Source: Heterotrichella gracilis (Eukaryota > Sar > Xanthophyceae > Tribonematales > Xanthonemataceae). From it: DNA of 64,000 bases. The notes beneath the pieces were generated by a model. That model was given only the letters and a program-made list of their open reading frames with translations. It had not been told where the DNA came from and ran no database searches. The stretch covers positions 1 through 64,000 of the forward strand of contig JAULBX010018414.1 of NCBI GenBank assembly GCA_032358255.1, in the 5' to 3' direction. Both the position numbers and the translations under genes were made by a program. How positions within the stretch are numbered: the stretch's first letter is position 1; each line of letters opens with the position of its first letter. This document shows, one piece after another, positions 13,414 to 53,959 of the stretch.

Positions 13414-16400
13414 ATGGCGCAGCCACCCATCAGAAAGCAGTTCAAAACACCAGAAGGTCGACACAGCTTGATATCTGAAAGGCTCATAGGGCTCGTGGGG
13501 TTCCTCCCACACAGAAATACAAAGATTACCATTGCGTACATCAAGGACCCAAACAATAAAGACCAGGTCTCAACATACCTGGTATTCAACGTTGGGGAGA
13601 ACTTGCATATATGCTCATACGATGGCACTGACCGGGTAAGCTAATAACTAAGCTTTGCGCATACTTTTGTGGGGCATTGGCACATGCATGGATATGCGTC
13701 AGTTTGGAATCTGACTTGTTGGGAGCATGGCTGAGAAGGAAAGTGCTCAGCACCAACTTGACATTATGGATCCTTGAAATTGCCAGGAACCGGTCCGCAC
13801 AATATGTCCCACTCCACCCAGCGGCCAAGTCTTGTCATACCCAACGTGTCATGACTTTGCGGCGTCAACCGATGACTATGACCTGCTCATTGGGATGTAC
13901 GCAGGAGATGGTAAGATCCTGCCCTTCTTTTGTACTCGCTTGTTGCTGCACACCTGCAACTGCCCCTGACTTACGTAGTGAACGCTGCTCTGCAGTATTG
14001 ATCGTATCACTCAGGCGCCAGGTCATGTCCAACGAAACACACAACCGCGTAGTCTCAGCACTGTGCTTCAACCCTGATGGTGCCCTGGACAACTCCAAGT
14101 GCACGAGCACTGCCTGGGTACCTGGCATAGACGCCAAAATGTTCCTCGCAGCACATGCCAGCGGGTTCATGTACTTGTTTCAGAAGGTGCGCTGCGGAGC
14201 CCTCCATGCCATGCGTGCATGGCATTTACTGTGTTGCATTCCTATGGTTGCCTACTCAGCACCTTCAGTGCAAGCTGCATCTGGCAGATTCAGGGTGCAT
14301 AAAATTGCTCCACTGTGCCTGCCAGGACTGTCATATCTTGGGTACAGCAGATACCCTTGGAAAACCCTAATTTTGGAACCTTAAACCCTAATGTTTTGCT
14401 CCGCTGCGCTGCTAGGACCTGTCATACCTCGGGGACAGCAAGTACTCTGGGAAGAACAGCCTTGCACCAACACCCATCCGCATATTCAATATCGGCTGCG
14501 GGGGCATCACTGCGATTGCGCCGTCTCCCGATGGCATGCAAATCGCTGTGGCAACGCGGGAGGGCTTCTTGGAGGTGTTTGAAATTGGCAACGGCAAGCT
14601 GCTGGCAGGGTTCAAGGTGAGAATGTGGGCGCGTCTGTGCAACTGTCCCCTCCTGCCCAATGGTGGTCGATGCCATGCCATTGCCTAACTTTGTGAGCAT
14701 GTGTGGGTTAGCATCCTGGCAGCTTGGGAACATGCATAGCTCACTTGTAATACATGTAACACTTGCATGCATGAAATGGAACAGTCTGACATGGACCATG
14801 TCGGTCCTAGCCATGGAGTCTGCATGCGCCCGCATGGGAATTCATCCAATCCGGACATGCGTGCAGTTTTGCAATCATAGCTTACGCTTCTAATACTTCC
14901 GCCGCATGCATGCAGAGCTACTACGGCGGTCTGCTGTGCGTGTGCTGGAGCCCTGATGGGCGCTATGTGGCCAGTGGCGGAGAGGATGACATGGTGGCGG
15001 TGTTTGGGACTCAGGAGAAATGCGTGGTGGCGTATGGCGAGGGGCACAACTCGTGGGTCAGCGCAGTAGCCTTTGACCCCTGGTGAGGCGCATGAAAGTT
15101 GCGATTGGCCTCTGGGAGCATACTTCAGCCTGCCTGTGCCACCTGCACCCGCCTGCATGTACTCCTATTGCATATCGTTCCACGGTGCGTTGAGCCCAGC
15201 AGGCAGCTGCCAGCCCTTGTGTCATGCGTCTTCATGTCGGCAGGTTTGTGTCACCTTTTTGCCAGGATAATTGTTATTCATATGCCCTCTTTTGCACCCT
15301 CTGCAGGAACTGCAGCATCCCGGACCAACGCAGCCCTGGCAGCCCCGCCATTGATGGTGAAGCAGAGACTGTGTACCGGTTGGCGTCAGTGGGGCAGGAC
15401 TGCCAAATGTGCATGTGGAGCGTGGTGATATCGGAGGAGACGCTGTCGAACATTCCTGCGCTGGGTGCCCGCCTGGGAGCCCACACGCCGCGGTCCGATC
15501 CATCAGGTGCGTATGTGGACAGGGGCGCACGACCTGGCGGGGTCTTGGCCAACTCTTGCTGCTGCCCTGTACCACCGGGCGGGTTTACAGTGTGCGGGTG
15601 CATACATGGCATGGTGGCGCTCGTGGCAGACACTCCCGGCCCCTTTTGCTGCCAGCAAGGGCTGCCATGCGCCGCTGTTGCGCGTGTCCGGGAGGCAGGA
15701 ATTCCAGCAGGGTCATGCTGCTCGGTGCGTGGATGCATTTGGGAGCAGATGGTGCGCGGCACTGCAGGCTAGTAGGCATGGCTGGCTGGCTGGTCTTTTT
15801 GTATTACATTTGTATATACATTTGTTTTGAAACACATTGGCTACTTTTCTACTCCTGTTGTGGTTGCCCTAGGGTCTCCATTCCGGAGGACCGGGGACAT
15901 GGATCGGTCATCGCAGCCTGGCACACCTGCCTCGGGCAGCCAGGGAAGCAACAGCATGAACGGGATGGGGTCCTCACGGTTAGGGGAGCCCAACTTGGTC
16001 ATCCAGCCATCGCCCTCGCGCTCTGAGATGCCCATCATTCCGCCTTTGGTGCAACACAGGTGAAGCAATGCGCATTGCCCTATAACCTTAAGGGGGCACT
16101 TCATCTCGCCTGATCTACGGTGGTTTGACCTTGCACCTCAACTCTTGTACGTTCCACACCAACCTCTGTACCAGCAGGGAAATGGCATCCATTGGCATTC
16201 CCCTGTGGCACGCTATGCATGTACACAGGTCTAAAATTGACTGCAAAGTTTTGCGCAACCGGTTCTTGAGCAGGCGCGGTCTCAGGCTTGCTGAGAGGCT
16301 GTGCCATTGACTGCCTGCAGGATGCACCTGGAGCCGCTGTCAGACATCAAGTTCAGGGAAGACAGCGTGTTCACGTCGTGTGCCAGTGGGCAGATCAAGC

Positions 16401-16474
16401 GGTGGCGGAGGCCGGAGCACGGGGCACACATCTCGCGCACCGACTCCCTTGCTGCAATGGATGACAGCGACTGA
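13414..16474 (+). CDS. WDR20: WDR20/DMWD/CreC-type WD40 protein
   Basis: Exons 13414-13635, 13787-13910, 13996-14186, 14416-14616, 14916-15082, 15307-15506, 15873-16059 and 16321-16474 give 481 residues in one frame. The order of motifs follows the family: KTPEGRHSLI, TCHDF and DYDLLIGMYAGDG early, then WVPGIDAKMFLAAHASGFMY, then the hallmark GGLLCVCWSPDGRYVASGGE, then NSWVSAVAFDP, YRLASVGQDCQMCMW, a Ser/Gly-rich linker, and a last repeat (DSVFTSCASGQIKRWRRP). In animals WDR20 activates the deubiquitinases USP12 and USP46; in fungi CreC stabilises CreB, also a deubiquitinase. A deubiquitinase cofactor role is inferred here. The linker before the last repeat is short compared with human WDR20. 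A degenerate echo of the exon 4 start lies in intron 3. Confidence 0.93.
14307..14366 (+). repeat. Exon echo: copy of exon 4 start in WDR20-like intron 3
   Basis: This 60-base stretch matches 14398-14455 at roughly 80 percent by eye. It includes the polypyrimidine side, the AG acceptor (cag here, tag in the real exon) and the first 40 bases of exon 4. Between the copies lies aaccctaa and taaaccctaat, both telomere-like. Confidence 0.7.
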
Positions 16475-17038
16475 CAGCGAGGTCCTCTTGAGGAAGCGGC
16501 TATCCCAAAGCTGCCTGGAGGACAGCGACTGACGCCGTCCGCAGCGGGGCGGCTGGGGCACAGGGGCAGGGGTTGCTGTGTTGTGAGCTTGCAATGCTCA
16601 CCAGCAGCGTTGTGGCACTGCCTTTTATTGGTCCACTATCTTTGGTTGAGGAACTGGCAAATTGGGGCAATTGCGCTGCATATTTTGCGTGTGGCACCCA
16701 GCCGCTGGCAAGGGTATTTAGGGCAGTGCCACAACTGATTGAGATAAGCGCCAAAGCACTAGAGTGACGATGTCAAACAAGCATTTTTTGGGGCTGGAAC
16801 GCGTGGCCTCCTGAGGATGGTGCCAAGGTGCCCTTGTACGGGCCCTAGGCCCTAGGCTAGGGTTCTTCAAACCCAAGCTTAGCCCGTGGGCAGTCCAAAC
16901 TTGAAGGTCAGCAGCGTTGAAACTTCGTTGTAACCTTGCCATTTGAAATAACGCGTTGGCTGCTGCTGTCAAGGTTGCACGCGCAAGTTTTCGCAAGAAT
17001 ATTCTTCCGGTAAGGTGCAGCATGCACGCTGTTTAGCG
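16475..17038. other. Intergenic, WDR20-like 3' flank to GPX start
   Basis: No gene is supported. A small palindromic cluster of ccctagg words (ggccctaggccctaggc) lies near 16850. Confidence 0.5.
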
Positions 17039-18124
17039 ATGGGGAACAGCAAGTCGAAATCGGCGCATTCCACCCCTTACAGCAACTTCCACCAGCTTTC
17101 GGCAACGGATATTGACAATAACCCCGTAGACTTCTCGAGCTTGCGTGGAAAGGTGATTTTGTCCATTAGTGGTGGTTGCATGCATTGTGCATGCATTGTG
17201 CCCGGAATCCACGATGTGCATGCACGTCGAGTTTAAAGATGCACTCGGCACAACTACCTTGGTATATCACTGCAGGTTGTTCTTGTGACCAATGTGGCCT
17301 CCAAGTGTGCGCTTACGCCAATCAGCTACAAGGTGGGTGTCAACTGGCTACCTATAGGGTGGGTGCCCACCTCCTAGCCAGCAAGGGCAACCTTGTTTCG
17401 GCAAACGGTTGAAGGGTGGTTGGCAACTGAACGAATAAAAACACTTCTGGTGGGCAGGGTTGCACCTGTTCATACTCTCATGTTTTTTCACAAGCTGACT
17501 CACTTCAGTTTCCTCTGCAGGAGATGGCGGAGTTGGCTGAGCTGTACAAGGACCAGCCATTTGCGATTGTGGCCTTTCCCTGGTGGGTATTTGGTGCAGC
17601 AATAGACTTTCACCTGCCCTGCACTGGCAGCACGGTGCAGGCAGTTCAATGGCCACTGTCCATACCTTCAGTGCAAGCCGGGGCTTGAAGCCCTATTCCC
17701 CCCCCTTCCCCCGGTAGGACCCTACCTGTTTGTCACACCCACTTCCCTTCCTGCAGCGACCAGTTTTTCCAACAAGAGCCCGGAACCAATGAGGAAATAA
17801 AAGCTTTTGCTGCCGGCAAGCAGTACAAGGGGTTGCTGATGGATAAGGTCTGTGTCAATGGGGAAAACTCACATCCTGTGTACAATTTCCTGAAGGTACG
17901 ACACCCGACTGTAGTGAACCAACATAACCCCACATTTGTGTGGTCGGATGCTTCTAACCTCATTTACATTATGGCTGTAGGTCGCTTCGCAGGACGCCGC
18001 AGATATACACTGGAATTTTGAAAAGTTTCTGGTTCGCAAGGACGGCACTGTGTGTGGGCGTTACGCACCAAAGACCAACCCTAAGATGCTGATTCCTTTC
18101 ATCACGGAGCAGCTCAAGCAGTAG
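17039..18124 (+). CDS. GPX: Glutathione peroxidase, Cys type, probably N-myristoylated
   Basis: Exons 17039-17152, 17276-17332, 17521-17582, 17757-17895 and 17981-18124 give 171 residues. The family signature is complete: [10 protein letters not shown] holds the peroxidatic Cys (Cys, not Sec), [12 protein letters not shown] holds the Gln and a second Cys, and [12 protein letters not shown] holds the Trp and Asn of the catalytic tetrad. Plant-lineage enzymes of this kind reduce lipid and hydrogen peroxides with thioredoxin rather than glutathione. The N terminus [11 protein letters not shown] has Gly2 and Ser6 followed by Lys, a good N-myristoylation pattern, so plasma or endomembrane attachment is inferred. 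No transit or signal peptide precedes the domain. The start is the only Met in frame ahead of the fold. Confidence 0.93.
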
Positions 18125-19276
18125 TGTGGTGCATGTGTGTGCACGCAGGCCAGGCACTGTTTGCTGGGTCGTCGTGGTGTCAAATATCTTGCGCCATAGA
18201 CCGACCTCGCTTGCCAGCTAGGTTGTTGCCTCGGCATGAGCATGACGATACTGCCTTTTTGTCAGACCTGCACATCATGACACTTGAATTGCAACACCTC
18301 GAGTTGGCCTCTGGCAGCCACCGAGGTTTTTCTTGCCAACCCTGGTTCCATAGCTAGTGGGACACTCTCACGCGAGAAGGGCGATATTAATTAGTGGATA
18401 CCATGGCCAGTGTGCCGCTTCAGTTTTTTTTGAACTGGCCAACAACAGTGAACTTGTTGGCCACTTTTTGTAAACTTGTGGATGTAAGTTATTCATCTGC
18501 AAGAGTTGCTGCACCTGTCCCTTGTCTGTCATTCTTTTTCGCACTGCCTTTGCACAGTAATTGTAGTGCTGCACTGGGTTTTCAAAATTTTGCCTGACAC
18601 CCACGCTCAAGCATGTCCCATGCCAGGTTGTGGGTACAATATATGATAGAGACTAGGCCATGGTGTCACTAGCAGGTACATTGGTGCACATGCCTCACCT
18701 GACCAACAGCCTGCGTATATGCGCCTGTTGCTGCTGATCTGGAACTTTTCTACCTGGCCTGTAAATAGGCGAGTTGTAATATCATACCATACTTACCTCT
18801 GATACTACTCAGCAGGGCTTGGTGGTCATGCGCAGTTATGCCACCTTCAATTGCAATGCATGCATGGGCGTCCCCCTTTTAAGCTTGCATATTGTTGCTT
18901 CCTTGTACATGCCAATATGATCCAGTGGTTTACTTACTACAAATTCACGATACGGTAGTGAGTGCGCCTTATGACACTTGTGTCAAGCCTAGTTCTGTCT
19001 CGATCTGAGGTTTCGCGGCTGCGCAAACCTACACAGTGATTGGCCATTCAAGCATATGCATGCATGCATGCATGCTAAAGTTCGGGGTTCTTTCAGCACC
19101 CGCGACCGAATACAAACTCAAACTGGGTCACTATTCTGTGGGTACCAGGGCAAACCTGGTACTTTTCAGATTGCTTAGACGCCGTGTATTCCCAGATGGG
19201 GTCGTGACGTGCCCTGACCTGGGCTGCCAACAGTTGGGTTGACTTCCTAGCGTTCTGCTCCGTTCCAAACAGCAAG
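18125..19276. other. Intergenic, with a CATG-repeat palindrome
   Basis: No gene is supported on either strand. Near 19054-19076 there is a run of alternating catg/gcat words (about 20 bases, self-complementary). A tgtaa word, the polyadenylation signal of many green algae, lies near 18483, but this is weak evidence. Confidence 0.4.
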
Positions 19277-28432: not shown

Positions 28433-31367
28433 ATGCACTTCAACGTGCAAAACGTGTGTCATATGACTTCAAGCCTGCTGGTTTTGCTACCCAAGGTGCC
28501 AAAACCTTCAGCCAAACAGCGCGCCTGCCCATTCACGTCTAGCAGCAGCAGCCAGACACACCATAGGCTATCCCGTCACGGTCCATCGGGTTCCAGGACA
28601 AACCGTACAGTATGCTACTGTGACAGCAAACAGCAAAGGCACACAGCGGGTGGGAGCAGCCCAATGCCACCCGCAGAAGTTGTGCTTACATGCCTACCAT
28701 TGCTGCGCAAGATGGACGTCCCTACGTGAGTACAGCACCCCCAACGTAGCCTGTACACATGTCACCCAGCATCAGCCACACACTTTTTAAGTTACACCAT
28801 CAAGGCATGACCAGCGTCCTCATAAAATGTCAGCACGCTTTTCTCCTGCATATACCCTCCTGGAGGGCAAAACGACATGCACTGCGGGTCTATATGCACC
28901 AACGGAAGCTATTGGTCAGGGTGTGATGACAAGCCCCAGAGGGTGTTTCTACGCGTTTGCTTCTCTCCTGCACGAGTAATGACCGCATGTGGCGCAGTGA
29001 ATTAAGGCTTGATTAATATTGATTTATGTGGATTAAAGTATAGCAGGGCACCTGCCACCCACAGGTTGCTGGAATATTTTGACCTCCGGCGAGCGCACCA
29101 GCAGCCCAGCCTCCAGGTTGCTATTGGTAGCGCGGTGGTCAGCGAGGAAGGGCCCCTCACCACCTTGGCAGGTCAGGCGCATGTGCAGCACCAGGTTGCA
29201 TCATCGCCGTGCAAGGATTGGCACCCTTGACACCACTCCACTCATCACCTTGTATGCATGTATTGTAGTGTCGGCACACAGTGTTGCAATGTTTGGTAGA
29301 TAGTGCGCATACGCCTGCAGTGTCACACGCCCACCAGGTTGGGATCCGTGACCATTACCACCCACCCACCCACCCACCCACACCACCCACCCACCCCCAG
29401 GGATGGATCCATTTGCATCCCTTTGTGAGCAAGTTGCCGCTGCTTCAGTTGCCGGCTTGTGGACTTTGTTGCCAAGCACTGTGGGTGATGCATCTTTTAT
29501 CGCTCCAACCCAGCCACACATTCACTGCAGGTTCTCTGGATGTGGCTGCGCGCCGCTGCATGCCTGGCCACCTCCTGCGGCGCTGCCAGCTGCTGAGTGC
29601 TGTCCAACTGGCAAACCAGTGGCAGGTCAGGGTGGCGATAACAGCCCGCGCAGGGGAGGAAGCCGTGTTTCTGTGGACCCTAATCAAACCCTGCAGGGCG
29701 CCTGAGAGTCCTGACAGTGAGGAGGGGTGCTGGAGTGTCGAGAGCGTGGTGCGAGATGTGTCGTGTGACTTGCCGCTGCCGACGACGCCTCACCCCAGGC
29801 AAGCAGATATTTCCTGGTGTTGCAATTCGTCCGGCTCGTACTCAGCGCTTTAGTGTGCTGGACTGGTTGGCTGCGCATGCAGATATATCTGCTGTGCAGG
29901 GTGGTGCGGCCGGCAACCCTGCCGGCAACCCGGCAACACTGCCGGCAACCCACGGCCCAGCAAAGGTTGTTTGAATGTGATCCCTCATTGCGTTCATGCT
30001 CGTGGCTGTCGCTAATGCATCCACGCACCCAATGAAACCTCCCCTCACACCTTCTCAGGCATGCAATCCTGAACCACTAAAGCTTGGGAGTGACCTACCC
30101 ATGATGTGATCCCTCATTTGCGCAGCCGGGAGCACCGTGATCGTGCCCTTCTGCAACCCGCCCCAAACTATTTCCCTTCAAGGGTCAATACACCATCCCA
30201 CAATGGTAGCAATCTTTTCAAACAAAATCAGCACCCCATAAGCGTGCTTGAGCAGTACGACATTCCAACGGTGGTGCATGTATTCTCCCTCGCAGGCACT
30301 CCCCCGAGGCAGTTGTGAGGGCACAGCTGCTTGCGCTTCAACAGAACGATGTCCACCTGGCAGCCATCTTCAACAGCTGGCCGCACAGCCTGCCCGGACC
30401 GCAGAGTTGGGGCTACCACCACCACATGCTGCAGCGGCTGCTGGAGCAAGCGCCCTACAGCCTGCTGGTGGGCCACTCACAGGTACCGTAAGGGTACCGT
30501 AAGGGTACAGTTAGGGTACAGTAAGGGGGCAGTAAGGGTGTGTCTGGCACAAGTGGCCACAATTATACGGCGTCGGTCTTGGTTTTCAGGTCTAGGGTTT
30601 AGGGTCTAGGGTTCAGCCCCAGAGCAGTGGCTATCACCACCACATGTTGCAGCGACTGCTGGAGCAAGAGCACTACAGCCTGGTTGCGGGCCATCCAGTG
30701 GTGGGGTGTGACTGGCACAATGGGCCACGATGGAGCATATGCATTGTAAATGTCATTTTGGCCTTGCAGGTGCAGCCAAGCGTGTATAGTGTAAGTGTAA
30801 TGCGCATGTGTCCACCATCTGCTTGCATGAAAAGCCAGCGCATGGCTGTGCATGCCTGTGCATCAGCGCATGCCTTCCCGTCGTGGGAAGCTGTGCAAAT
30901 GAAACTCTGTGCAGGGTATACTCTGACATGAGTTCAGACACGTTAGGCGCGATGGCCTTCAGCAGTGAGTAACTGCATCAATCCACACCAATAAATGTGT
31001 GCCATACACTACAGAATCTGCAGTGGTCCTACATAGCACCCAATGCTATGTGATGTAGTTATCTGGAAGTTGGGGAAAATTTTGATTGGGCGGCACAACC
31101 CTGCCAACACTCACAGGCTGTCCTCATGCCTTATGTTATTTTCATTTTTCATCACATTGGAGCTTCCGATAGCATTGAACGCAGCTGTGTCCTCCCATGC
31201 AGGCCACTCTGAGCGTCGCTGCCCTGCCCAGCCAGAGGCGCTTCCTACAGGAGGTGGTGGTGGGGGGCGGGCAGCCGCCTGTGGCAGCAACATTCGTTTT
31301 CAGCCTAGGCCTGCAGGCCAACGGGTGCTGGATGGTGGAGGAGATCGCCTGCGGCCCTTTGCACTGA
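28433..31367 (+). CDS. Two-domain DUF4864/NTF2-like protein, likely plastid
   Basis: Exons 28433-28725, 29065-29171, 29531-29798, 30296-30482 and 31203-31367 give 339 residues in one frame. The third intron starts with GC (ccag then gcaagc), and only this donor keeps the phase. Residues 1-75 are Ser/Thr/Arg/His-rich and transit-like. Two repeats follow. The first opens MPPAEVVLTCLPLLRKMDVP and closes EGCWSVESV; the second opens SPEAVVRAQLLALQQNDVHL and closes NGCWMVEEI. The P-x-x-V-V-x3-L-x2-L-x3-D-V opening is typical of DUF4864 proteins, relatives of the SnoaL/NTF2 fold, whose function is unknown. Family assignment is by pattern only. An echo of exon 4 lies in intron 4. tgtaa words follow the stop at about 110 and 135 bases. 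Confidence 0.65.
29340..29400. repeat. CCCA-rich microsatellite in DUF4864-like intron 2
   Basis: A run of accc/ccca tetranucleotide units. It lies well upstream of the ctgcag acceptor at 29530. Confidence 0.8.
29907..29953 (+). repeat. Tandem CCGGCAACN repeat in intron
   Basis: About four copies of a unit near nine bases (ccggcaaccc and variants) lie in the GC-AG intron of the DUF4864-like gene, about 110 bases after its donor. Confidence 0.7.
30615..30735 (+). repeat. Exon echo: copy of DUF4864-like exon 4 end and its intron start
   Basis: The first 80 bases match 30398-30480 (ggctaYcaccaccacatg, ctgctggagcaag, ctacagcctg) at about 84 percent by eye. Further on, gtgtgactggcacaa matches gtgtctggcacaa at about 30540, so the copied unit crosses the exon-intron border. 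A tract of tagggtt words (30595-30614) sits immediately before it. The splice donor of the echo is damaged. Confidence 0.8.
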
Positions 31368-33121: not shown

Positions 33122-33713
33122 GCGTGAAAGGGAGGGAGGGAGGGGTTGTGTATGGGAGGGGTGGGGCAGGGGTGCTTGGGAAGGGGAGATGGAGGGGTGG
33201 GTGTTGGAGGTCATGTGAAAAGGGGGAGCTCACGGCGAGGCTTTTGGGCTGTGCATTGCTGGAAGGTGAAAGTGGGTCAGGTCGAGGGTTTGGGAGGTAC
33301 GATGCCATTTTAATTTTAAGGAGACACTTTGCGGATAAGGAGACACTTTGCGGATAGCTTGTTATTGGGATAGCTTGCAAGGTTGCTAGTGAAGAAATAA
33401 ACATCGTAACAGTGGAATATGTCATAGCCTGTAACGCTTACCCCAGCCATATGCTTTACACAGCGGCAAAAATGAGAGGGGCGGTCCCCCCTGATCTGTA
33501 CAGCTTGCAGGAACTGAACCACGAGTTCCATTGTGGGTGTGGAGGACCCACTGGGGGCTGGGACAGGGACACTGGTGCCCAATGCCATGTCGAGCTTGGC
33601 GCATGTCATGTGATTTTATGGACATACCATTTGGTATGGCATATCAGTAGTGTTTATGTGTCATTTGCGTACCGTACTAGTGAGAATGCATTGCTCATAA
33701 ATAATTAAAATGT

Positions 33714-33785
33714 GCCTGCGCAGAGGCCTGCGCAGTATCGAATTTAATTGGTTCACGGCTGCGCAGTAGCCTGCGCAGTGTCGAA
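33714..33785. repeat. TGCGCAG cluster, period near 43 bases
   Basis: Two copies of a unit containing cctgcgcagt-tcgaa followed by AT-rich sequence, with further tgcgcag words between them. Confidence 0.65.
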
Positions 33786-34175
33786 AATAATCCAAAGAGC
33801 TGGAGTGGCCAATATTTAAAGTTTGAAGTAAATTGTGCATAGACACGAAACCCTAAACCCTTTTTGCATGTATACGTAGATCTGCACCTGTTTGTGGCTA
33901 GCCTGTAACTTGGCAGGTAAGCGCATTCTTTCAGAAAGGAAAAGAATCGCTTCTGCAATTGGGTGCATAACTACAAGGCAGCATAGTCCACAGGATACAT
34001 AATATATATATGTTGTCATGCTCTAAGTGATTAGGGTATGAGAGGTGGTATTTATCCCTGGTTGTGCGAAAGAAAAAAAGAAAAGTGTGCGGGGTTGGTG
34101 ATAATCACCTGCATACCTGCGCACCTCATGCTACAGGCTGCAGGGTGGCACTGCAGTTAGTACTACATGCAGTAT

Positions 34176-34335
34176 AGGGTGTGCAATGGGGTACGCAGTG
34201 GCAATATTAATTGCGGTTTTTGGGTGCGCAATGGTGTGCGCAGTGGCAATATTAAATCGGTATGTGGTGCGCAGTAGGGTCGCAGTGGTATTATTAATTA
34301 GGTTTCTTGAGGGTGCGCAATGGGTTCTCACTAGT
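34176..34335. repeat. Tandem array, period about 43-46 bases, 3.5 copies
   Basis: Each unit reads tgYgcaatgg, then cgcagtggcaatattaa or a close variant, then a G/T-rich tail. GC-rich and AT-rich halves alternate. The tgcgca core is shared with the cluster 450 bases upstream. Confidence 0.75.
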
Positions 34336-34779: not shown

Positions 34780-37700
34780 ATGCGGGCTTTGCAAAGCCCT
34801 GCGAGTGCCGGAAGAGCGTGCCCGCCCTATCAAACTGCCGAGCAGCCAAGACCGCAGGTCCCTTTCGTGGGTGGGCACCGGCTAGCCCTGGGTGGCACTC
34901 CGTCTGCTGGCGCAGGGTCAAGGAAAGCAGCTCCGCAAGTGGTGTGCCGGTCTTCATATGAGCTCCGCGCTCCTCCAGCCTACACCGCAGGACCTGAAGA
35001 GCCAGAAAGACCAGCCAGAGTACAGCAGGAGTATGTAAGGCGGGAAGACAGGCCTGAGTATGACCGGGCGTACAAGAAGAAGCAAGTTGGTACGCTAAGT
35101 CAGCTGCCTGAAAGTGCTGTAGGCACCAATGTTGTGTTTGCATTATGAAAGTGAGCTGGGTTAAGTATGCAAGGGTGCTGCTTGGCATGACAATGGTAAG
35201 CTGCTTCGACTTGCAGCACAGTTGGCAGCAGTTGCACCAACCCACAACAGCAAACCTTGGGGGAACAGTGGTCATTATCTTCACAAAAACAACTTTTGAG
35301 GGCGCCATTGGTTCTCCACATCCCGCACCAGCATCCCTCCCTCCGTCCAGCACCATCACCCTCCCACCATCCCCCTTGGTCCTGACCCCTTGCCCCCTCA
35401 TGCCCCACCAGAGGCCCTCCCCGAGAGCTGGGAGGCCAGGCAGGTGCTGTCGGTGGATGCCTTCCGATCCTGCCAGTCAGATGAGGAGTGGGCGGCGCTG
35501 GTGTGCGACACATGCATGCGCCTGGCGGCAGACAAGCAAGTTGAGGACTGCAGGCGGCTCCTGGTATTTGCCCAGAGGCAGCACCCGCACATCGAGGTAC
35601 CACAACCACGCCTTGCACCCGCACACCCACACCCACAGTCACCCACACCCGCCCACCTCCACGCTCCACCCCTTGGGATGCTTGGAATCTTGCTTCGAAG
35701 CTGGAATGCACACATACTCTCAGCAGCGCCCGAGTGCCACCAAGCGCAACAGACTGAGCAGCGGAGCCAAGTGCATGGTCTCACAGCTAACCCCAAAACC
35801 CGAACCCCATCGCCCCGTGCGTGCAGGTTGCCACGGGCAAGTTCCCTCGCAAGGTGCTGGCCAAGGCTCTTCAAGGTGAGGGCATCCTGGGCGTGCTGCC
35901 GCTTCTGTGGAGCCTACCGCCAGACATCCGCCTGTATTACCTGCTGCTGGATGCATGTGTGGACCGGAAGAACCTCAAGGTGGGTGGAAACCTGAACCCT
36001 ACTAAAGCCAGCCGGCAGGCATATGGGTGTACTACCTGCTGCTGGATGCGTGTGTGGACCGGAAGGACCTCAAGGTGGGTGGAATCCTGAACCCTAGCTG
36101 TATACCCTAAACCCTGCCGCCAGACATCCGGCTGTACTGCCTGCTGCTGGATGCGTGTGTGGACAGGAAAATCCTGAAGCGGGGGGCGCGTGGAGAAACA
36201 TGATCCTGGGTGTATCCCCTAAACCCTTTGGGGCTGACTTTCGCCTGTGGTACTTGCCATTGGGTGAAATCGTATTACATACCCCGTGCCATCACACCCC
36301 AACCCACCCACCCATCCCCATCCAACCCCCCCCAGGCCATCAAGGCCATCATGAAGGGCATCCGCAACGACCGGCGCCTGGACAACGAGATCTCGCGCGA
36401 GACCTACCTGCAGCTCATAAAGTGCTACGGCAAGCTGCGCAAGGAGGACGAGGTGCACAAGGCGTTCAACTGCGTGCAGCAGATGGCGGGGGCGCGCAGG
36501 ACCGACGTGGTGCTGCTCAATGCCTACCTGAATGCTCTCTGCTGGAACGTGAACCTGCAGTTCAACAGGTGGGCGTGGAGTTGGTGTGGGAATGGGGTGC
36601 TGGGGTGCATGCCTGGATGCGGGGGAGGGTGGTGTGGAGGGGGTAGCACTGCGTTCAGCTGCGCACAGCAGGTGGCGGGGGCGTGGCGGGGGTGCGCAGT
36701 TTGGATGTGGTGCTCCTCAACGCGTACCTTCACGCGCTCTGCTGGAATGTGAACCTTCAGTTCCAACAGCTGGGTGGTTGTTTGGGCCATGGTGCGTTCT
36801 GGGCTGCCGCGCACGGTGCATGCTGGGAGGGGGGGGAGGGCGGTGGTGTGGAGGAGGCTGGCATTGAGAGGTGCAATCCCACCCATCGCAGTCTGCCCAC
36901 TGCCATGTGGAAGGAGAGCAGTGAATCACGTCTCGTCTGCAAGCAGAATACAGTGCAGGCATTGTGTCAAGCAGTGTGCATGTGCCATGGACAACAGTGC
37001 AGTGTGCTCCGCCACTGGCCCCCATCTACCCTCCCCCCCTTGGCACAATTACCGCCATATACATTCTTGTCTCTGACACCCTACCGCAGTCACAAATTGG
37101 GACCCACGTCTCCCCCCCACCCACCCACCCATACCGCACCCCACAGCACCCCCACGCCCGCCACTGGTTTGCCCAGCTGCGCCTCCAGGGCTACGCGGTT
37201 GACCTGGTCACCTACAATACCCTCCTCAAGGGTTGCATACTGGGCTCAATTGCTGCCACCTGGCGCCATGACACACATACATACAACATCTTCCCGGCTT
37301 GCAACTCCACATTCCTCCTTGCACCCGCCTTCGCCCACTGCCCTGGCACACACCCCCCACCCCCCTTGTACCCGCCCTTCAGGTTTGCCCAGCTGCGCCT
37401 CCAGGGCTACGCGGTTGACCTGGTCACCTACAACACCCTCCTCAAGGGTTGCATGCTGAGCGACGATGTGGTGCGGGCAGACAGCGTGTACCAGTGGATG
37501 CAGGAGGACAAGGTTGCAGCTGATGAGTACACCTTCAACACCCTAATCAAGGTGGGCTGGGATAGGTATTACGGTAGGGGCAGCAGGTTAGGATGCGTGG
37601 GCTGGTTCCAGCGCTTTAGGTTGGGATGCTGACATTTGGGGTGGTTGGTTCCAGCAGCGCAGTCAGAGTGACAGTCAGGCTTGACAGGGGTTTGCGCCAC

Positions 37701-40700
37701 TAAGCCCTGTCTCATTCCTGTGGATGAGCACACCTTATTGCAGTGTTAAAAACATTTAAAGCCCTCATCAAGGCCATTTTTTATGGTAAGGGAGAGCTTT
37801 GCCTGCCAGGCTGCCACCCTACACACCTCCAGTACAAGTGTGCTTTTTCATCGCACCTCGTTTGTTTATTTATATCATTCGAGGATGTTAATTGAGTGGC
37901 AATGACCTACCATCCTCCCCAGTGCGTCCCCGCAAGCTTTATTGAGTGCACCTTAAGCACTCCACACACCACCCTCCGACACCCACCACCACCCACACAC
38001 GCATCACTCTCGACATTGGCACTCATCCCCACCCCCAGGTGTACTCCTACGGTGGGGATTTGGAACGGGTGCTCAAGGTGCGCAAGCTCATGGAGGAGCA
38101 GAATTTCGCTCCCAGCCTGCGCGTGTGGGGATCCCTGTTTGCGGCCTGCGGGAAGGCAAACCAGATGGAGACCGCCATGGCCATGTGGACGGAGGCAAAG
38201 GCAGCGGGCATCGAGTTCCAGCTGGACCAATACCATGCGCTGCTGAACGCATGCGTGTGGTCGTTCCAGGTAGGGTTTGGATGATGCAATCAGTTCCTTT
38301 TAAGTTCATTTACCGTCTTCGGCAATTCTCCATTTCTCTGCTGGAACCATCATCAAGTCCCCAGTGCAGACCCCCTGGGTAAAAATTAGGAAAACCTCAC
38401 AGCAAAATCTCTGGGAAAAACTTGAAAGTTCAAAACCTGCCCCGCAGACCGACCGTGCCCTCACCGTACTGCGTGAGCTTATCGCCTCCCCCCTGGATCC
38501 CACCACCCTCACATACAATATCGCCATCAAGGCATGCGGCGCCGCGCCGGGGCTGTCCCTGCGGTCCTGCCAGCTGGAGCAGGCACTGGAGTTGTTTCAG
38601 GAGATGCTGGACAGGGAGCTGGAGCCTGACCTCATCACCTTCAGCACACTGATTGACCTGTGCGCCCAGGTGGGTGTGATAAACCAAGGGCCACAACAGC
38701 ACCTCATAGAATCTGCAATGACCATGGAATTTGATGTAATGATATACAGTATGGCGGTTGCATGTAATGCATTATTGACAGGAACAACGAACGTTTTTAA
38801 TTTTTTTTGTGTATTATTGAAAGACAGCCTGCCCCTTACAAACCATACCAATGCCATAACTAACAGAGTCAGTCAAGCTTCCACCCCTTGTGCGGTACAC
38901 CTCTCAATCCCCTCCCCCTTGGGTCACAGGCCAAGCAGGGCGCGCGTGCCCAGCAGCTGTTTGACGACATGCTTGACCGCAACATCAAGCTGGACATGGT
39001 GGCGTGCAACTCACTCATCGCAGCCTACGCGGCTACAGGTAAAGTACCCTACTTCATGTGGCTCTTTCTCACAGCAAATTCTCAATCTTAATGTATGAAA
39101 TCCGTTTCTTTTATCCTTGCTGGAGAGTGCCGGCGTCGCGCACAGTTGAGTAGGCGTGGTGGATTCCTGCAACACCCCTACGACAGGGTTATGAGCCCGG
39201 GGTGGCTCCCTCATGACTGCCCAAAAATGCCCTGTAAAATCCTGTTGCGCAAACGGCGGGCGGTGCCACAATGTTATCTCCCTCCCTGTGCCTGACACCC
39301 CACCCTTGTCCCCCGCCACAGGCATGGTGGCTGAGGCGCTGGCTGTGTTTGGGCGCATGGTGTGGGGGCCCTCCCGCATGAAGCCCTCCCGCCCCACCTA
39401 CACGTCGCTCATCCGCATGTGCCGGGAGCACGGCGACCTGGAGAGCGCACTCAACCTGTACCAGGGCATGCGCAAAGCAGGTGGGGGGTCGGGCCATGGG
39501 CGCATGCAGAAGTTAGTGAGGTTAAGGCATGGGCGCATGCAGGACTTAATGGGAGCGGGGCCATGGGCTCATGCAGAAATTGGGGATGTGCACCAAAGTA
39601 CGATGGGTTATGCATGGGGTACATGCAGCGGCGAGTGCTGCGTGCTGTGCCCTATTTTTGCGCATGGTCCGATGGATGGGCATGCAAACGAGTACTAGGC
39701 TAGTCGATGTCCCATGGGTACGCAGCTTATAATCTGCTCCACAATGATTCTCTCCTCAGGCTTTGCCCTTGATCACCATCCCTTGGCTTCACACCTTAAC
39801 CCTCTTTGTGTCTGTGCCGTGATGGCTGTGCCGGGACCACACCGCAACCGCCCGTCCCCATTCCTCTGAAGATTTTGACTTAAAACCCTAAACCCTAACC
39901 TCCTGTGCCTTTTCCCAGGCTTTGCCCCTGACAATCAGGAGTTTGAGGAGCTGACCAGCGCGTGTGCAGACACCGCCCTCCACCTAAGCACCGGCACAGC
40001 AGTAACACCCAGGGGCTCGCCGGTGAGTATGATATAATTGGATTGTTTTCCAAGAAGGTAATTTGAACCCCTGTCAAGCCACATTGCCTGTGTGTTTTCA
40101 CATGGTTTTGAACCTGACCCCCCGCCCCCAGTTCCCCTCCTTGCTCGACCCCAAGTCCGCTAACCCTCCCTTGTATATCTGCTTCTTTTTTTCCCTTTAA
40201 ATCTCAATTCCCCCCTGTCCCCAGTTCCCCTCCCTGATCGACCCCCAGTCCCCGGAGCTTGACCTGCACGGCCTATCAGTACTTGAGGCGCGCAGCGCTG
40301 TGTTGTGCACGCTCAGCAAGCTGCAGGCGGCTGCACGGGAGGGGGCGGAGGTGGAGGGTGACCTGGTGTTCATCACAGGCCAAGGGGTGCACAGCGATGG
40401 GAGTCCCAAGCTGCGGGATGCGGTGGTCAGGTGGGTGGGGAGGGGACTTTTGAGTGTAGTACTGGTGTCAAGGGGTGCACAGTACTGGTGTCAAGGGGTG
40501 CGCAGCGATGGGACGCCCAAGCTGAGGGATGCGGTGGTCGGGTGGGTGGGCTGTCGGTGGTGGCGGTGGTGGGCAGGGGGCCAGGAGGGAGGGGGTTTGT
40601 GTACATTACTGGTGTCAAGGGGTGCACAGCGATGGGACTCCTAAGCTGAGGGAAGCGTTGGTCAGGTGGGTGGGCTGTGGGGGGTGGCGGTGCGAGGCAT

Positions 40701-41066
40701 GGGGAGAAGTAAGACTTGTGGACATCACTGGTGTCAAGTGTGCGCGGCGAAGAGCCCGCCATGGTCAGGCTCCTCAATCTCCCCCTAAACCCTAATGCAC
40801 TCCACAGGTTGCTGGATGTCGAGCTCCACCTGCCAGTGGTGCCTGCGCCAGGCGAGGAGCGGGCGCAGGCGGGCACCAGCGGTAGCCAGGAGGGGGCCAG
40901 CACCGCCCGCGCATCGCCAGGCACAGGCGAAACAGCGCACAGAAACGGGGCAGGGATGGAGAAGAACCTTGGGAGGGTGACGGTGCGGCGCGGCGAGCTG
41001 GAGGCGTGGTTGCAGATCCGGTTGAGGCGCAGTGGGACGGGGCAGGCAGCTAAGCAGCCTGCATGA
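34780..41066 (+). CDS. PPR-SMR protein, plastid-type, 779 residues, 12 exons
   Basis: Exons 34780-35089, 35412-35596, 35827-35979, 36336-36568, 37383-37551, 38039-38269, 38448-38669, 38930-39038, 39322-39480, 39919-40022, 40225-40430, 40808-41066. The frame is unbroken across all joints. Residues 1-60 are Ala/Ser/Arg/Pro-rich and transit-like. From about 200 to 625 there are helical repeats of the PPR type, best seen in DLVTYNTLLKGCMLSDDVV, TTLTYNIAIKACGAAPG, EPDLITFSTLIDLCAQ and RPTYTSLIRMCREHGDLESA. From about 626 an SMR domain follows (LDLHGLSVLEARSAV, then GDLVFITGQGVHS). In plants this architecture is shared by GUN1, pTAC2, ATP4 and SOT1, which act on plastid RNA, gene expression or signalling. 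I cannot tell which is the orthologue. Introns hold many exon echoes. Confidence 0.9.
36009..36265 (+). repeat. Three exon echoes of PPR exon 3 end
   Basis: The end of exon 3 (35920-35979) with its donor is repeated at about 36009-36100 (ctgctgctggatgcgtgtgt, then cctcaag and gtgggtgg kept) and at 36116-36215 (same core, donor lost). A much worn copy lies at 36228-36265 (ttcgcctgtggtacttgcc). The units are separated by cctgaaccct, ccctaaaccct and ccctaaaccc, i.e. telomere-like words at each joint. Confidence 0.85.
36653..36855 (+). repeat. Exon echo of PPR exon 4 end and intron start
   Basis: This matches 36464-36640. It carries the last 100 bases of exon 4 (gtggtgct-ctcaa, gctctctgctggaa and related words), a changed donor region, and intron sequence down to gggagggYggtgtggagg. 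The copy is diverged (roughly 75-80 percent by eye) with small indels. Confidence 0.8.
37166..37241 (+). repeat. Near-identical exon echo of PPR exon 5 start
   Basis: The first 74 bases of exon 5 (from 37383) are present upstream with only two differences by eye, so this copy is young. It lacks a proper AG acceptor directly before it (cactg instead of ttcag) and runs into non-matching sequence after ggttgcat. It encodes the same peptide, FAQLRLQGYAVDLVTYNTLL. Confidence 0.9.
39483..39600 (+). repeat. Tandem CATGGGCGCATGCAG repeat in PPR intron 9
   Basis: Three copies of a unit of about 35 bases, each carrying catgggcgcatgcag or catgggctcatgcag, start a few bases after the exon 9 donor. They may have grown from the gggcatgcgcaaagcag end of that exon, but this is uncertain. 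Confidence 0.7.
39750..39790 (+). repeat. Weak exon echo of PPR exon 10 start
   Basis: The stretch caggctttgcccttga matches caggctttgcccctga at the real acceptor (39917). A run of aaccctaaaccctaacc lies between the two, at about 39882-39900. The matched length is short, so this is the least certain echo. Confidence 0.45.
40127..40166 (+). repeat. Exon echo of PPR exon 11 start
   Basis: About 40 bases (ccccagttcccctcc, then tcgacccc-agtcc) repeat the acceptor and start of exon 11 at 40221-40260 with some seven differences. The AG acceptor is kept. Confidence 0.75.
40461..40750 (+). repeat. Array of exon echoes of PPR exon 11 end
   Basis: The exon 11 end (aaggggtgcacagcgatggg through ggatgcggtggtcag and the gtgggtggg donor, 40380-40440) recurs at 40483-40551 and 40607-40680, both with the donor intact or nearly so. 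Partial copies lie at 40461-40482 and 40725-40750. All intronic copies start with actggtgtcaa, which the exon itself lacks, so later copies were made from an echo rather than from the exon. Confidence 0.85.
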
Positions 41067-48658: not shown

Positions 48659-51600
48659 ATGAGGACAGCACATGTTGGCCTTTGCGCCAGCCAGAAAGGT
48701 GCTGTAGCACTGATGCCTGCCACATGCAGAAGCGCAGCTTGCCAAAGAACCAGCCCAGCCAGGCTGAACCAACTAGCAGGCTGCAAGTCCCAGGTAAACC
48801 TTCGATCCAGCGCTCAATGTCTGCCCACGACAATTTGGTTCGACACACTTGCTGGGGGGCGATTTGATACTGCAACCATGCCTGATGCGCGCGATGTGTC
48901 CTGAGTTCTTCTCTAATGCAGCTGTTTGGCAAGAACGTCGCGGTGTGTGGGCAGGCGGCTGTCAGGCCAGTGCCATCCAGGTTCCAAGGTGCGTTTTTTG
49001 CCCCCTGCTGACTGCACCCCTGTGTGCCGAGGAGCACTTTGACTAAGGTGGGATGCCCAATGCAGTGACGGCGGTGGCGAGCAGCGAGGGCAAGCCAACC
49101 ATCTTGGTGGCCGAGAAGCTGGGAGCCGCAGGTAGGGACCAATCCCGCTCCCCGTAACCGCTGATCGGGTTGTGAGCAGACAAGGAATTGACCCCTCCCC
49201 TGTGCCTCTCAGGTATCGAGCTGCTCGAGGAGTTTGGCAACGTGGACTGCAGCTACAACCTCACTCCCGAGCAGCTATGCGCCAAGGTGTCCCTCGTGGA
49301 TGCCCTCATCGTGCGCTCGGCCACCCAGGTAGGCCTGATCTCTACCCCCTGGCGCCACCTGCTGCCCATATGCATGCATTGTGCCATGTTTGATGGCACG
49401 CCATGAAACCCGATGGCAACGGATCCTCCTGTTTGAGATGCCTCGATGTGTATGATAACCTCTTTTATTTACTGGTTGGCTGCCCAACGCCACCATTTTT
49501 GGCTCAATTGCCCCCGATCGTCTTGCTGTTTCACCTACCTGGAGCGCCCCTGAAGGTTGGCAGCTTCTATTATGATATGAGGCATTCACACAATACTAAC
49601 TGCTGATGACCAAGTCAGTACCATTGTACCAGCTCAGCTTTCACCTCCTGCACCTCTCCTCCCCCAAAACCTCCCCAGCACCCACCATTCCACACCCTGC
49701 CCCTCCTGCGCCACCATGCTCCACCCACACCCGCCTGATGCACCCCCACCCCACCCCCGCACAGGTGACCAAGGAGGTGTTTGAGGCCTCCAAGGGCCGC
49801 CTCAAGGTGGTTGGCCGCGCGGGTGTGGGTGTGGATAACGTGGACCTCACCTCGGCAACAGAGGTGCGCTGCACTGAAACCCTAAACCCTAGCTCCTACG
49901 CGAATCCGCAAGGGACTACACCCAACGCTCTGCACACCACCGATGACCAGGATGACACCTTGCTACCCAAGCCTTTGAGCTGCAAATCACCTGTTGCACA
50001 CAAGGCGCACATACCTGATCCATACCGCCAGCCAGGCCGCAGCAACTGGTCACCAGGCCCCTCTTGACCCCACCCCACCACCGCGTGCAGAACGGCTGCC
50101 TGGTGGTGAACGCCCCCACCGCCAACACCGTGGCCGCCGCCGAGCACGGCATCGCCCTGCTCACCGCCCTGGCGCGCAACGTGGCCCAGTCCGACGCCTC
50201 GATGAAGGCCGGGCGCTGGGACAGGAACAAGTACGTGGGCGTGTCGCTGGTGGGCAAGACAGTGGCCATCATGGGCTTTGGCAAGGTGGGTGCAGCAGTT
50301 TGGGTTTTAGGGTGTAGGGTTCACCTCTCCCCGTGTGCATGAGTACACATGCGCGGGAGGTCCCCTGTGGGCTGGAGTGGACCCTTTAACGTATATCCCC
50401 TGTACCACACCTGGTTATGATTACATCATCCTTATAAGTGCATGCCGCATGCCATGCACGCCCTCATCTCCCCGCCACGCTGCACCACCACCACTCTCCC
50501 ATACTTTGGCTCTGGCGTCGCCCGCCGCGCCAAGGGTCTGGGCATGCAACCCACCCAACCCCCTCGCCCACCCACCCACCACACATGCACGCGTCTCCCG
50601 TAGGTCGGCTCCGAGGTGGCCCGCCGCGCCAAGGGCCTGGGCATGTCTGTGGTTGCCCACGACCCCTACGCATCCGAGGAGAAGGCCACCGCCCTGGGCG
50701 TGAAGCTGGTGACCTTTGACGAGGCGCTGGCCACAGCCGACTTCTTCTCGCTGCACATGCCGCTCACGCCGCAGACCAAGGTGCGCTGCCAGGGTGGTGA
50801 AAGTGGGTGGGGGACACATGGCTGAGAGTCACCTGATGTGTGCTGCAATTGTCTTTTAAGTGGGTTGGATCAAGTGGGTGAGGGTTGCCTCACGTGCACT
50901 GCACCATGCGCCGGGATCGTGCGCTGTGCGATTCTGCACATATGGTATCTGCAAGCGCAGCAAGGTGCACCCACGTGGGTCTGGCCAAGGAGTGGCGTAG
51001 CCTAAGCGAGGGCTGTGTGTGGCCCTATGCACTGGGGCCGTGCTGCATGATGCACCAGAATCGTGTGCTGAGGTCATGCATTGTGGGGGTTGCAGCTGTG
51101 TGCACCCCATTGGTGTTTTGCAAGGGGTTGTGCGTCACCAGCGGGCGGCAACGTACTAGCCATATCCATCATGGCACCCTCATGACTGGCCGGCCATGCA
51201 TGGGATCCCCATGCACCGCCCGCATGGGGCATGCCGCATCGGGCGTGCCAGGCAGCCATGCGATGCACATGTACACATCAGCAGACCCAAGCATGCGAAT
51301 CATATACCGTGCACCAACCCCTCCCCTGGCCCACTTTGCCGCCTGTGCTGGGGAAAATCCCACACCATGCTGCCCGGTGCGATACCCCCTGCTCCCCCCT
51401 CCCCAGGGCCTGTTTGGCGCCGAGGCGTTCGCCAAGATCAAGAAGGGGGCGCGCATCATCAACGTGGCGCGCGGGGGGGTCATCGACGACGCGGCGCTGG
51501 CTGCGGCCCTGGATGCGGGCCAGGTGGCGGCGGCCGCCATCGACGTGTTTGTGAAGGAGCCCCCACCAGCGGACCACCCCCTTGTGGGCCGCGCGGACGT

Positions 51601-53959
51601 GATTTGCACGCCCCACCTGGGCGCCAGCACTGAGGAGGCGCAGGAGGAGGTGGCCATTGAGATCGCAGAGGTGGTCATCAAGGCGCTGCAGGTGGGTTTT
51701 GGTTTTAGGGTTTAGGGTTGATGTAGGGTTTTTTGCACGCCCCACCTGGGCGCCAGCACTGAGGAGGCGCAGGAGGAGGTGGCCATCGAGATTGCAGAGG
51801 TGGTCATCAAGGCGCTGCAGGTAGGTGCAGGGTTTAGGGTTTAGGGGTATTGTTGCACGGGCCACCTGGCCGCCAGCACTGAGGAGGATATTGAGATCGC
51901 TGAGATGGTCATCAAGGCGCTGCAGGTGGGTGCGGGGTAACACACAGGCACACCCTCCTCCTACCCCAGACATGCGCATCCATGCACCTGCCTGTGTTAA
52001 CCCCCCTTGTCCCACCTCCCCTGCAGGGTGAGCTTGCAGCCACCGCCGTGAACGCACCCATGTCCTCCCCCCATCCCCCCCACCCCCCGTGCTCACATTC
52101 ACACTCACACTCACCTCTCCCCCCTCCTCTTACAGGGCGAGCTTGCCGCCACCGCCGTGAATGCACCCATGGTCCCGGCTGAGGTTCTCAAGGAGCTGCG
52201 GCCATTTGTCAACCTGGCGCAGGGCCTGGGCAGGGCGGCGGTGCAGCTGGTGGCAGACGCAGGCTTCAGCGACGTGGTGGTCACGTACCACAGGTGGGGC
52301 CGGGGGGGGAAGTGGGGTGTTGCAGTGCATGGTGGCTGGTTGCTTGTGCAGCAGGTGGGTGGTGCCACTTTAGTCCCAGGACATACTGGCCATCCCAGTC
52401 TAGGGTCAAACTGGAAATGTGGATGACCCGCCACTACTCCCTCAAGCATTCCCAACCCCACCAACGTTCCTGCCATCCTCCCACCACCCACCACCCATAT
52501 TTCGGCAATATGACCTACATGGCCCCCGAAATCATGTTCTTTTCCGTATAGCATCCATGACCAGTACGATAGTCAGTAATATAATACCACAGCCAATTAT
52601 AACTACGTGCAAAAAAGAAAGGCTTGTAATTAATTCAATTAGTATCACCGCCACCACCCACCACCCCTCACCCACCCGCCACCGCCCCGCAGCCCCCGCG
52701 GCGACGACCTGGACACCCGCCTGCTGCGCGCCATGGTCATCAAGGGCATCCTGGAGCAGATCACCACCGCCAACGTGAACCTGGTGAACGCCGACCTGCT
52801 GGCCAAGGCGCGCGGCCTGCGCATCATCGAGTCCATCGTGCCCTCCGAGGGCCGCGAGGTGCTGAGCAGCATGACCGTCAGCCTGGGCACCAGCCAGAGC
52901 AAGTTCAGCTCGGCGGTGGACGCCAGCGGCAAGATCAGCGTGGGCGGAACGGTCAAGGGCGTGATGCCGCTCATCACACAGATCGGCACCTTTGACGTGG
53001 AGCTCAGCATGGAGGTGAGCATCTACACCCTGAAATCCTGAATCCAAAGATCCTGAATCCTGAATCCTGAAATCCAAAAGAATCCTGAAACCCTGAATCC
53101 AAGAGACTGTACCAAGTGCACTGTTCAATGAACGCCTGTTGGAGTGGCATGGGCGTACTCCTGGTCTGTGCCTACTGGGTAGCTATTGGTGCAACAGCTG
53201 CGCAATGACTGCGCAGGCGCCCCCTCCCAAGTTCTCAGTCCTTGGGACCAAGGCTGGCATCAATGCGCACGCCATCTGAACCCTATGTCCTGAACAAACC
53301 CTAAACCCTACTCTCAACCCTCCGCAGGGCGACGTCATCCTCGTGTCCCAGACCGACAAGGCCGGCATCATCGCGCGCGTGAGCAGCGTGCTCGCCGAGA
53401 GCGACATCAACATCTCCTTCATGACGGTGTGCCGCACAGGCAGGGGCCAGGAGGCGATCATGGCCATCGGCGTGGATGCGCAGCCAGAGCCCGAGGTAGG
53501 ATGCATGCACATGATTATTTCAGAAGTAGGGAATTGTTTTTAATGAAAAATCCATGTTATTACGATAAATCACATTGTTGATTGTCCTGATATTCTCGCA
53601 CAAATTTGGGTGCTCGCACTGTGCCCTCGCACAGTGTGTGGCTGGCTTGCGCATGCGCATGCGCAGCACGTGGTACAGTGGGTTGGGTGCGCTTGGTTGA
53701 CCTTGCTCTGGCATTTCTTCACACCACCATGTCTATTCATTCATGTTTTTGAACGCATTATTGCATCAGAATACTGGTTGCCCGCCACTGGTGCGCTGCG
53801 CCGGACCAAATGCAGCTCCAGGAAAACTAATCGAACAAATGAGCTACTGCGCTGCAGCATACTCATGTGCCCGTCCATGTGCTGCAGGTGCTGGCCCAGG
53901 TGGCGGCTGTGGACGGCGTCCACGAGTGCAGCAAGATCTCAGAGTCCATGCTGCGATAA
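48659..53959 (+). CDS. PGDH: D-3-phosphoglycerate dehydrogenase, plastid, 625 residues
   Basis: Exons 48659-48793, 48922-48988, 49048-49131, 49213-49328, 49765-49863, 50091-50285, 50604-50780, 51407-51691, 52136-52293, 52693-53014, 53328-53495 and 53888-53959. It oxidises 3-phosphoglycerate with NAD in the first step of the phosphorylated serine pathway. Residues 1-75 form a transit peptide (MRTAHVGLCASQKGAVALM). KPTILVAEKLGAAG starts the substrate domain. VAIMGFGKVGSEVARRAKG is the NAD loop (G-x-G-x2-G). IINVARGG, DVFVKEPP and TPHLGAS supply the catalytic Arg, Glu and His. An intervening domain (52.1-53.0 kb) and a C-terminal ACT domain (DVILVSQTDKAGIIARVSSV) complete the long, regulated form. 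The acceptor of exon 3 (actaag) is not a strong one. Three sets of exon echoes lie in its introns. Confidence 0.96.
50511..50548 (+). repeat. Exon echo of PGDH exon 7 start
   Basis: The core cccgccgcgccaaggg-ctgggcatg repeats 50619-50646 with one difference, in the intron just upstream. The matched stretch encodes ARRAKGLGM in the real exon. The acceptor itself was not copied well. Confidence 0.85.
51733..51937 (+). repeat. Two exon echoes of PGDH exon 8 end
   Basis: The last 88 bases of exon 8 (51604-51691) recur starting near 51733 (only a few changes, donor gtaggt intact) and near 51853 (with an internal deletion, donor gtgggt intact). Each copy ends in aaggcgctgcag followed by a donor. 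The first two are followed by gggtttagggtttagg-type sequence, so unit ends and telomere-like words coincide. Periods are about 129 and 120 bases. Confidence 0.9.
52024..52062 (+). repeat. Exon echo of PGDH exon 9 start
   Basis: The segment cagggtgagcttgcagccac through gcacccatg matches 52133-52171 at 36 of 39 positions, including the AG acceptor. Using this earlier acceptor would run out of frame, so the downstream site is taken as real. Confidence 0.85.
53038..53100 (+). repeat. Minisatellite after PGDH exon 10
   Basis: Repeats of gaatcc, gaaatccaaa and tcctgaa words, in at least six partial copies, lie about 25 bases after the exon 10 donor. Confidence 0.75.

Follow-up and report, generated by a model that had tools for sequence, protein, structure and literature searches.

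Short tandem duplications can arise when end joining follows the filling-in of both overhangs of a staggered double-strand break. For 3′ overhangs, the filling-in depends on CST and Pol alpha-primase, which form the telomere fill-in machinery (PMC8355091, in the sections drawn on here). Mammalian telomeric insertions likewise mark repaired breaks, sometimes with a target-site duplication; in the excerpts of these studies that we use, the intron share of human interstitial telomeric repeats agrees with random insertion, and those with a duplication form a minor class (PMC2246262, PMC7215372). Direct repeats of 4–30 bp near intron splice sites, detected by comparing an intron's two borders, have been interpreted through break repair by Rogers and Bendich in 2025 (PMC11782384, as excerpted). 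Here we describe a 64,000-nucleotide (nt) stretch of the genome of the xanthophyte Heterotrichella gracilis (contig JAULBX010018414.1, positions 1 to 64,000, hereafter the window), in which introns carry copies of the adjacent exon end. We call these copies echoes. The concentration of such duplications at exon borders is real and lies far above chance. As a type, the proposed scar is already known; its placement at splice junctions appears to be new, and we found no account of the exon-end echo pattern in the open-licence papers searched.

The assembly measures 68.5 Mb in 903 contigs. The window and 200 kb of a second contig, C2, formed a 264-kb sample, to which the results below refer unless another scope is given. 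Local direct duplications were collected by self-BLAST in 3-kb tiles (direct strand, copies 20–1000 nt apart, E up to 1e-3), which gave 128 pairs in 86 clusters. Gene models came from a self-trained hidden Markov model (HMM) gene finder run without RNA support. Twenty-five exons that we marked out by eye in three genes of the window served as its seed, 15 of them supplying codon counts and all 25 splice sites; the finder returned 65 genes with 419 exons, including 20 of the 25 seed exons exactly. The pattern is not confined to the window. Seventy-two of the 86 clusters join exon with non-coding sequence: 58 span a predicted border, and in a further 14 an exon is paired with non-coding DNA. The remainder are intron-only (6), intergenic (5) or exon-only (3). 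Among clusters of at least 85% identity, 36 of 48 join exon with non-coding sequence, the others being 5 intron-only, 3 intergenic and 4 exon-only; at 90% identity or above, the figure is 27 of 37.

Part of this pattern would be expected of ordinary random tandem duplication, in which births are uniform, exon-internal copies are removed by selection and intron-only copies decay from sight. By geometry alone, many duplications will reach a border, and copies at borders stay recognisable for longer, with a sensitivity of 0.47 versus 0.18–0.19 elsewhere in the oldest age class. Sensitivity was measured with 250 artificial duplications planted in each zone (border, intron and intergenic) and aged with real exons evolving slowly and all other sequence at the neutral rate. 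Overall detection was 0.82 at borders, 0.67 in introns and 0.70 in intergenic DNA, and the corrected rates per kb of opportunity were 1.72, 0.124 and 0.082, respectively, which places the border rate 14–21 times above that of intron interiors and intergenic DNA. Because the border excess survives this correction, decay and the purging of exon damage fail to explain the pattern, and the predominance of exon-containing clusters at 85% identity and above speaks in the same direction. In the 33 better-supported genes used for rates, we counted 61 border clusters (1.62 per kb), 4 intron-only clusters (0.073 per kb) and 2 exon-only clusters in 35 kb; 7 kb of 5′ flank held none. The assumed 3′ flanks held a single cluster in 12 kb, a further point against random duplication, which we consider very improbable. 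An earlier note on the window had held that borders are favoured and that ordinary slippage does not explain why, and the 14–21-fold excess supports both statements. It had named border overlap at chance level across the genome as the outcome that would contradict it; on the 264-kb sample, as distinct from the whole genome, overlap is well above chance. GC content alone was rejected as an explanation, 23,296 start positions at 60–70% GC having yielded 4 non-coding-only clusters, as was pure targeting of the mature exon, given the cold presumed 3′ flank (the limits of the untranslated regions being assumed).

In the window, blind self-BLAST recovered all ten sites at which the earlier note had placed copies of adjacent exon ends. 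When every copy is skipped, the exons of the WDR gene (8 joined exons), the PPR-SMR gene (11) and the gene for D-3-phosphoglycerate dehydrogenase (PGDH; 9) each form one open frame, in which the first exons are not all included. The WD40, PPR and PGDH domains are supported by Pfam, as is Smr, at a score below its cut-off; the DUF4864-like label given to a fourth gene found no match to any Pfam family. The earlier note had described the copies as usually crossing the exon–intron border; at 37.2 kb, good homology ends at or close to the border. In the PGDH gene, TTTAGGG repeats lie in both gaps between copies. A comparison of the PGDH region (49700–53600) with the whole genome matched only the region itself, and neither a second haplotype nor a paralog was seen (one locus, very common words skipped). 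Introners, which are mobile intron elements, were rejected on the same search, as this one locus has no dispersed near-identical copies. The coordinates of the echoes, their fillers and two of the source exons are collected below.

Table. Echoes, intervening fillers and source exons in the window.
Feature	Position in window	Strand	Compared with, or remark
Echo of WDR-like exon 5′ end, including 3′ splice site	14305–14362	+	14396–14453, 80%
Telomere-like CCCTAA spacer	14362–14391		after WDR-like echo 14305–14362
Source exon, WD40 gene	14416–14616	+	joined-exon frame, domain match
Telomere-like filler	30593–30613		just before echo 30617–30702
Echo of 3′ end (donor side) of exon 30296–30467	30617–30702	+	30399–30484, 81%
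First 3′-end echo of PPR exon 35827–35979	36006–36079	+	about 35911–35984, 79–85% (both echoes)
Telomere-like filler CCCTAAACCCT between the two PPR echoes	36090–36115	-	
Second 3′-end echo of PPR exon 35827–35979	36113–36184	+	about 35911–35984, 79–85% (both echoes)
3′-end echo of PPR exon 36336–36568	36651–36774	+	36462–36573, two blocks, 88% and 81%
5′-end echo of PPR exon 37383–37551	37137–37245	+	37351–37461, 86%; core 37166–37242 97% over 77 nt
5′-end echo of PPR-SMR exon 40225–40430	40118–40158	+	40211–40251, 88%
3′-end echo array of PPR-SMR exon 40225–40430, period 111–124	40492–40769	+	exon end from 40381, 74–79%
5′-end echo of PGDH exon 50604–50780	50504–50546	+	alignment 50458–50546 with 50558–50645, 72%
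Source exon, D-3-phosphoglycerate dehydrogenase	51407–51691	+	joined-exon frame, domain match
Telomeric filler TTTAGGG, PGDH exon end to first echo	51704–51731	+	
First echo of PGDH exon 3′ end	51732–51833	+	51603–51697, 81–91% (both echoes); exon part differs by 2.2%
Telomeric filler, first to second PGDH echo	51829–51846	+	
Second, more worn echo of PGDH exon 3′ end	51853–51938	+	51603–51697, 81–91% (both echoes)
5′-end echo of PGDH exon 52136–52293	52002–52062	+	52110–52171, 82%

The window also holds an intergenic tandem repeat with a 45-bp unit in 3.3 copies (34177–34324), which has a relative near 33717–33790, and a perfect tandem duplication of 19 bp in about two copies (33317–33356).

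Across 58 events in the sample, the copy lies 53–225 nt from the border, with a median of 110 nt, and it almost always falls in the adjoining intron. In 29 fresh events, with no more than 15% difference in the exon part, the copy extends 16–90 nt into the exon (median 45), farther than it extends into the intron in 23 of them. Several of the freshest events hold a spacer of unrelated sequence, and others are plain tandem arrays. The splice site is often kept, as the earlier note had observed: GT or AG stands exactly at the copied border in 34 of 54 copies, and 34 of 54 have, within 2 nt, a site that scores like the best 90% of predicted sites, compared with 4–5% of random intron positions. This retention would be expected if selection kept exon-end duplications, for example as a spare splice site that aids or tunes splicing. 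In the copied exon part, the first, second and third codon positions mismatch at 14.5%, 13.9% and 22.8%, respectively; the aligned intron part does so at 22.7%, and gaps break the frame in 20 of 53 copies; these values indicate that the copies drift freely and that only the real exon is constrained. Neutral-like divergence of this kind, seen in the intron part as at every codon position, makes selective retention rather unlikely in our judgement, although it bears on the retention of the copies and not on their fixation. By the same evidence, the proposal that echoes serve as a source of alternative exons found no support, and a conserved coding function of the copies was rejected. Exon duplication giving mutually exclusive exons was rejected too, the copies being mostly exon ends and often broken in frame.

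Copying from an RNA template, in which the pre-mRNA or cDNA of a gene is copied into nearby breaks, would account for the sense orientation of the echoes and for their occurrence mostly within genes and clustered by gene. The copies nevertheless include intron bases at the splice site, only 2 of 49 hits of spliced coding sequence (CDS) to a gene's own introns span a spliced exon–exon junction, and the assumed 3′ flanks are uncopied. We regard this route as quite improbable.

Direct pairs outnumber inverted ones by 105 to 35, and 31 of the 35 are palindromes. Of the four separated inverted pairs, two match the first exons of one divergently predicted gene with those of another, one consists of telomere-like intron sequence and one is intergenic. 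At C2:6539–6743 and C2:7490–7695, a 206-nt inverted pair (83%) covers first exons and donor borders of divergently predicted genes and is probably an inverted gene duplication. No exon-end copy inverted inside an intron occurs among the 35 inverted pairs, and inverted template switching was rejected on this count. Polymerase theta and template switching are expected to yield both direct and inverted copies. The absence of inverted exon-end copies weighs against both processes, templated insertion through polymerase theta and template switching during replication, at G- or C-rich intron ends, as does the low count of clusters in GC-rich non-coding sequence that lies away from exons. The unique spacers between fresh copies and the position of the boundary near the splice site in some events would suit such a process, and GGG is more frequent at echo borders (2.85 versus 1.46 per 50 nt, in a count that includes filler). 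On balance we consider templated insertion unlikely.

The genome carries a high interstitial telomeric load. Genome-wide, the internal double telomeric unit TTTAGGGTTTAGGG has 5629 matches (2845 + 2784), against 5 for the reversed pattern. Within the sample this load is mostly intronic, with 67 telomere-like runs in introns, 8 in intergenic DNA and none in exons, or 0.67 per kb in introns and 0.086 per kb in intergenic DNA. Of 66 intronic runs, 38 are no more than 30 nt from a border, where 23% would be expected. A telomere-like run occupies 13 of 57 echo spacers, compared with a null of 4.2% for random intron and 7.7% for border-adjacent intron. The earlier note's suggestion of a repair process centred on splice sites gains support from this filler; intron-linked copying, which it also named, we can only infer. 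Counted as whole-genome pattern matches, which are not independent sites, a donor-like motif precedes a telomeric run by 0–20 nt in 480 sense and 327 antisense cases, and by 100–120 nt, as a control, in 148 and 111. Before the acceptor-like TGCAGG, the CCCTAAA orientation prevails by 819 to 456 genome-wide, in a count made without a far-distance control. Within 30 nt on the acceptor side in the sample, CCCTAAA (antisense) runs number 14 and sense runs 2. This bias fits either priming on the intron-facing end or selection for a branch-point-like sequence; under the selective reading discussed above, CCCTAAA before acceptors could act as branch-point or pyrimidine sequence. At C23:72994–73242, C64:105329–105478 and C76:114112–114805, donor and telomere motifs are closely repeated (112 nt apart in C23), resembling multi-copy echo arrays.

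Echoes are unevenly distributed across genes (p 0.0002 for 50 genes; p 0.003 for the 30 better-supported genes used for clustering statistics). Genes with a higher echo rate tend to have more telomeric inserts outside the echo zones (rho 0.51 in the 50 genes; 0.44, p 0.014, in the 30); such runs number 31 in the 39 kb of intron belonging to genes with echoes and 10 in the 40 kb belonging to the others. A set of fragments from 24 of 30 loci, chosen solely by the double unit TTTAGGGTTTAGGG and all lying beyond the 200-kb sample of C2, contained 21 exon-containing clusters at 110 borders, or 0.19 per border versus 0.10 generally. Echo-rich genes with Pfam support include those for PGDH, adenylate kinase, a Sec23/24 protein, a decarboxylase, an RRM protein and a DUF819 protein.

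As the best explanation, to which we assign about an even chance, we propose that echoes are repair scars of staggered breaks, formed by fill-in duplication with telomeric filler and concentrated at splice junctions. A staggered double-strand break would straddle the splice junction, and both overhangs would be filled in, as CST and Pol alpha-primase do at 3′ overhangs in other systems. Telomerase, or another source of filler, would add sequence at an end, and end joining would then seal the break to leave unit, filler and unit in series. As the exon-adjacent copy would keep the reading frame, such an event would just lengthen the intron and thereafter drift neutrally; events wholly inside an exon are presumably purged. 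Candidate causes of junction breakage in certain genes are transcription- or splicing-coupled lesions or nicks, R-loops and G-rich intron ends. The wider proposal, that certain genes have fragile sites at their splice junctions, broken repeatedly by a transcription- or splicing-linked process, with telomeric-filler repair duplicating the exon end and introns growing from their edges, we advance tentatively, as somewhat short of an even chance.

Such scars would share with the fill-in duplications attributed to CST and Pol alpha-primase in the sections of PMC8355091 used here that they are short, direct and adjacent, with a unit of about 100 bp or less. They differ from those duplications in being concentrated at splice junctions and in often containing telomeric or other filler, and the enzymes are named by analogy. 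Like the short interstitial telomeric sequences of mammals, the telomeric units here lie inside chromosomes and some accompany a duplication of the presumed break site; unlike the random placement described for human repeats in the excerpts cited above, their density in introns is about 8 times that in intergenic DNA, and they lie close to exon borders. The repeats of Rogers and Bendich, as excerpted, are also direct, near exon–intron borders and read as break repair; echoes are longer, and each is a copy of one border inside the intron. Exon sequence duplicated beside a splice signal is further known from intron gain by tandem genomic duplication, in which duplicated exon sequence makes the intron (PMC4974935 and PMC2809761, in the parts consulted), and echoes might be traces of that process. 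They lengthen existing introns, however, and contain the pre-existing splice site of one border. In-register direct repeats across intron ends were barely above shifted controls, with 3 in 353 introns against 0.7 expected at score 10, and none at score 18. Intron gain is thus a most improbable source of the echoes.

Several observations weigh against reading the echoes as break-repair scars at splice junctions, or loosen the numbers behind it. The 25 exons by which the gene finder was judged are the same that seeded it, its models label some echoes as exons, and the 708 borders counted include those of echo copies it took for exons. A mirror-sequence control gave 22 hits, so a minority of the weak pairs is probably noise. 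With no empty-site ortholog or second haplotype, the pre-duplication state is unseen. The intron boundary is loose: intron reach in the 29 fresh events is 0–98 nt (median 14), not sharply zero, and among the 13 freshest, homology ends no more than 13 nt from the border in 5 and 23–61 nt from it in the other 8. At least one of the 29 fresh-event borders, C2:180427, is a predicted CDS end rather than a splice site. Among the 33 better-supported genes, annotated CDS ends are also fairly often duplicated (3 in 5.1 kb). Of the 72 clusters that join exon with non-coding sequence, 6 pair an exon with sequence called intergenic. The target may thus exceed splice junctions, or the models may miss exons. 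The separated inverted pair at C2:6539–6743 and C2:7490–7695, together with its neighbour, contains exon sequence. Most spacers, 44 of 57, are non-telomeric, and donor-side telomeric inserts lack an orientation preference (11 and 11). The fragments picked by their double telomeric unit also hold 5 intron-only clusters, and the correlation with GC content at third codon positions falls from 0.56 to 0.39 in better-supported genes. At C2:181168–181350, among the freshest events (96%), the upstream copy has no AG at its border. Insertion of a copy of the exon head explains this better than symmetric fill-in does, so repair may follow more than one route. One DUF819 gene has an intron, C2:181115–181747, with both a donor-side and an acceptor-side echo.

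Should the echoes prove to be repair scars at splice junctions, gene structure itself would steer mutation in this alga, and the splicing map would be written into the mutation map. Such a process would tie DNA breakage to splicing or transcription in a way that can be tested, and would provide a mechanism both for the lengthening of introns and for the appearance of spare splice sites. It would also explain many of the thousands of telomeric repeats scattered in the genome.

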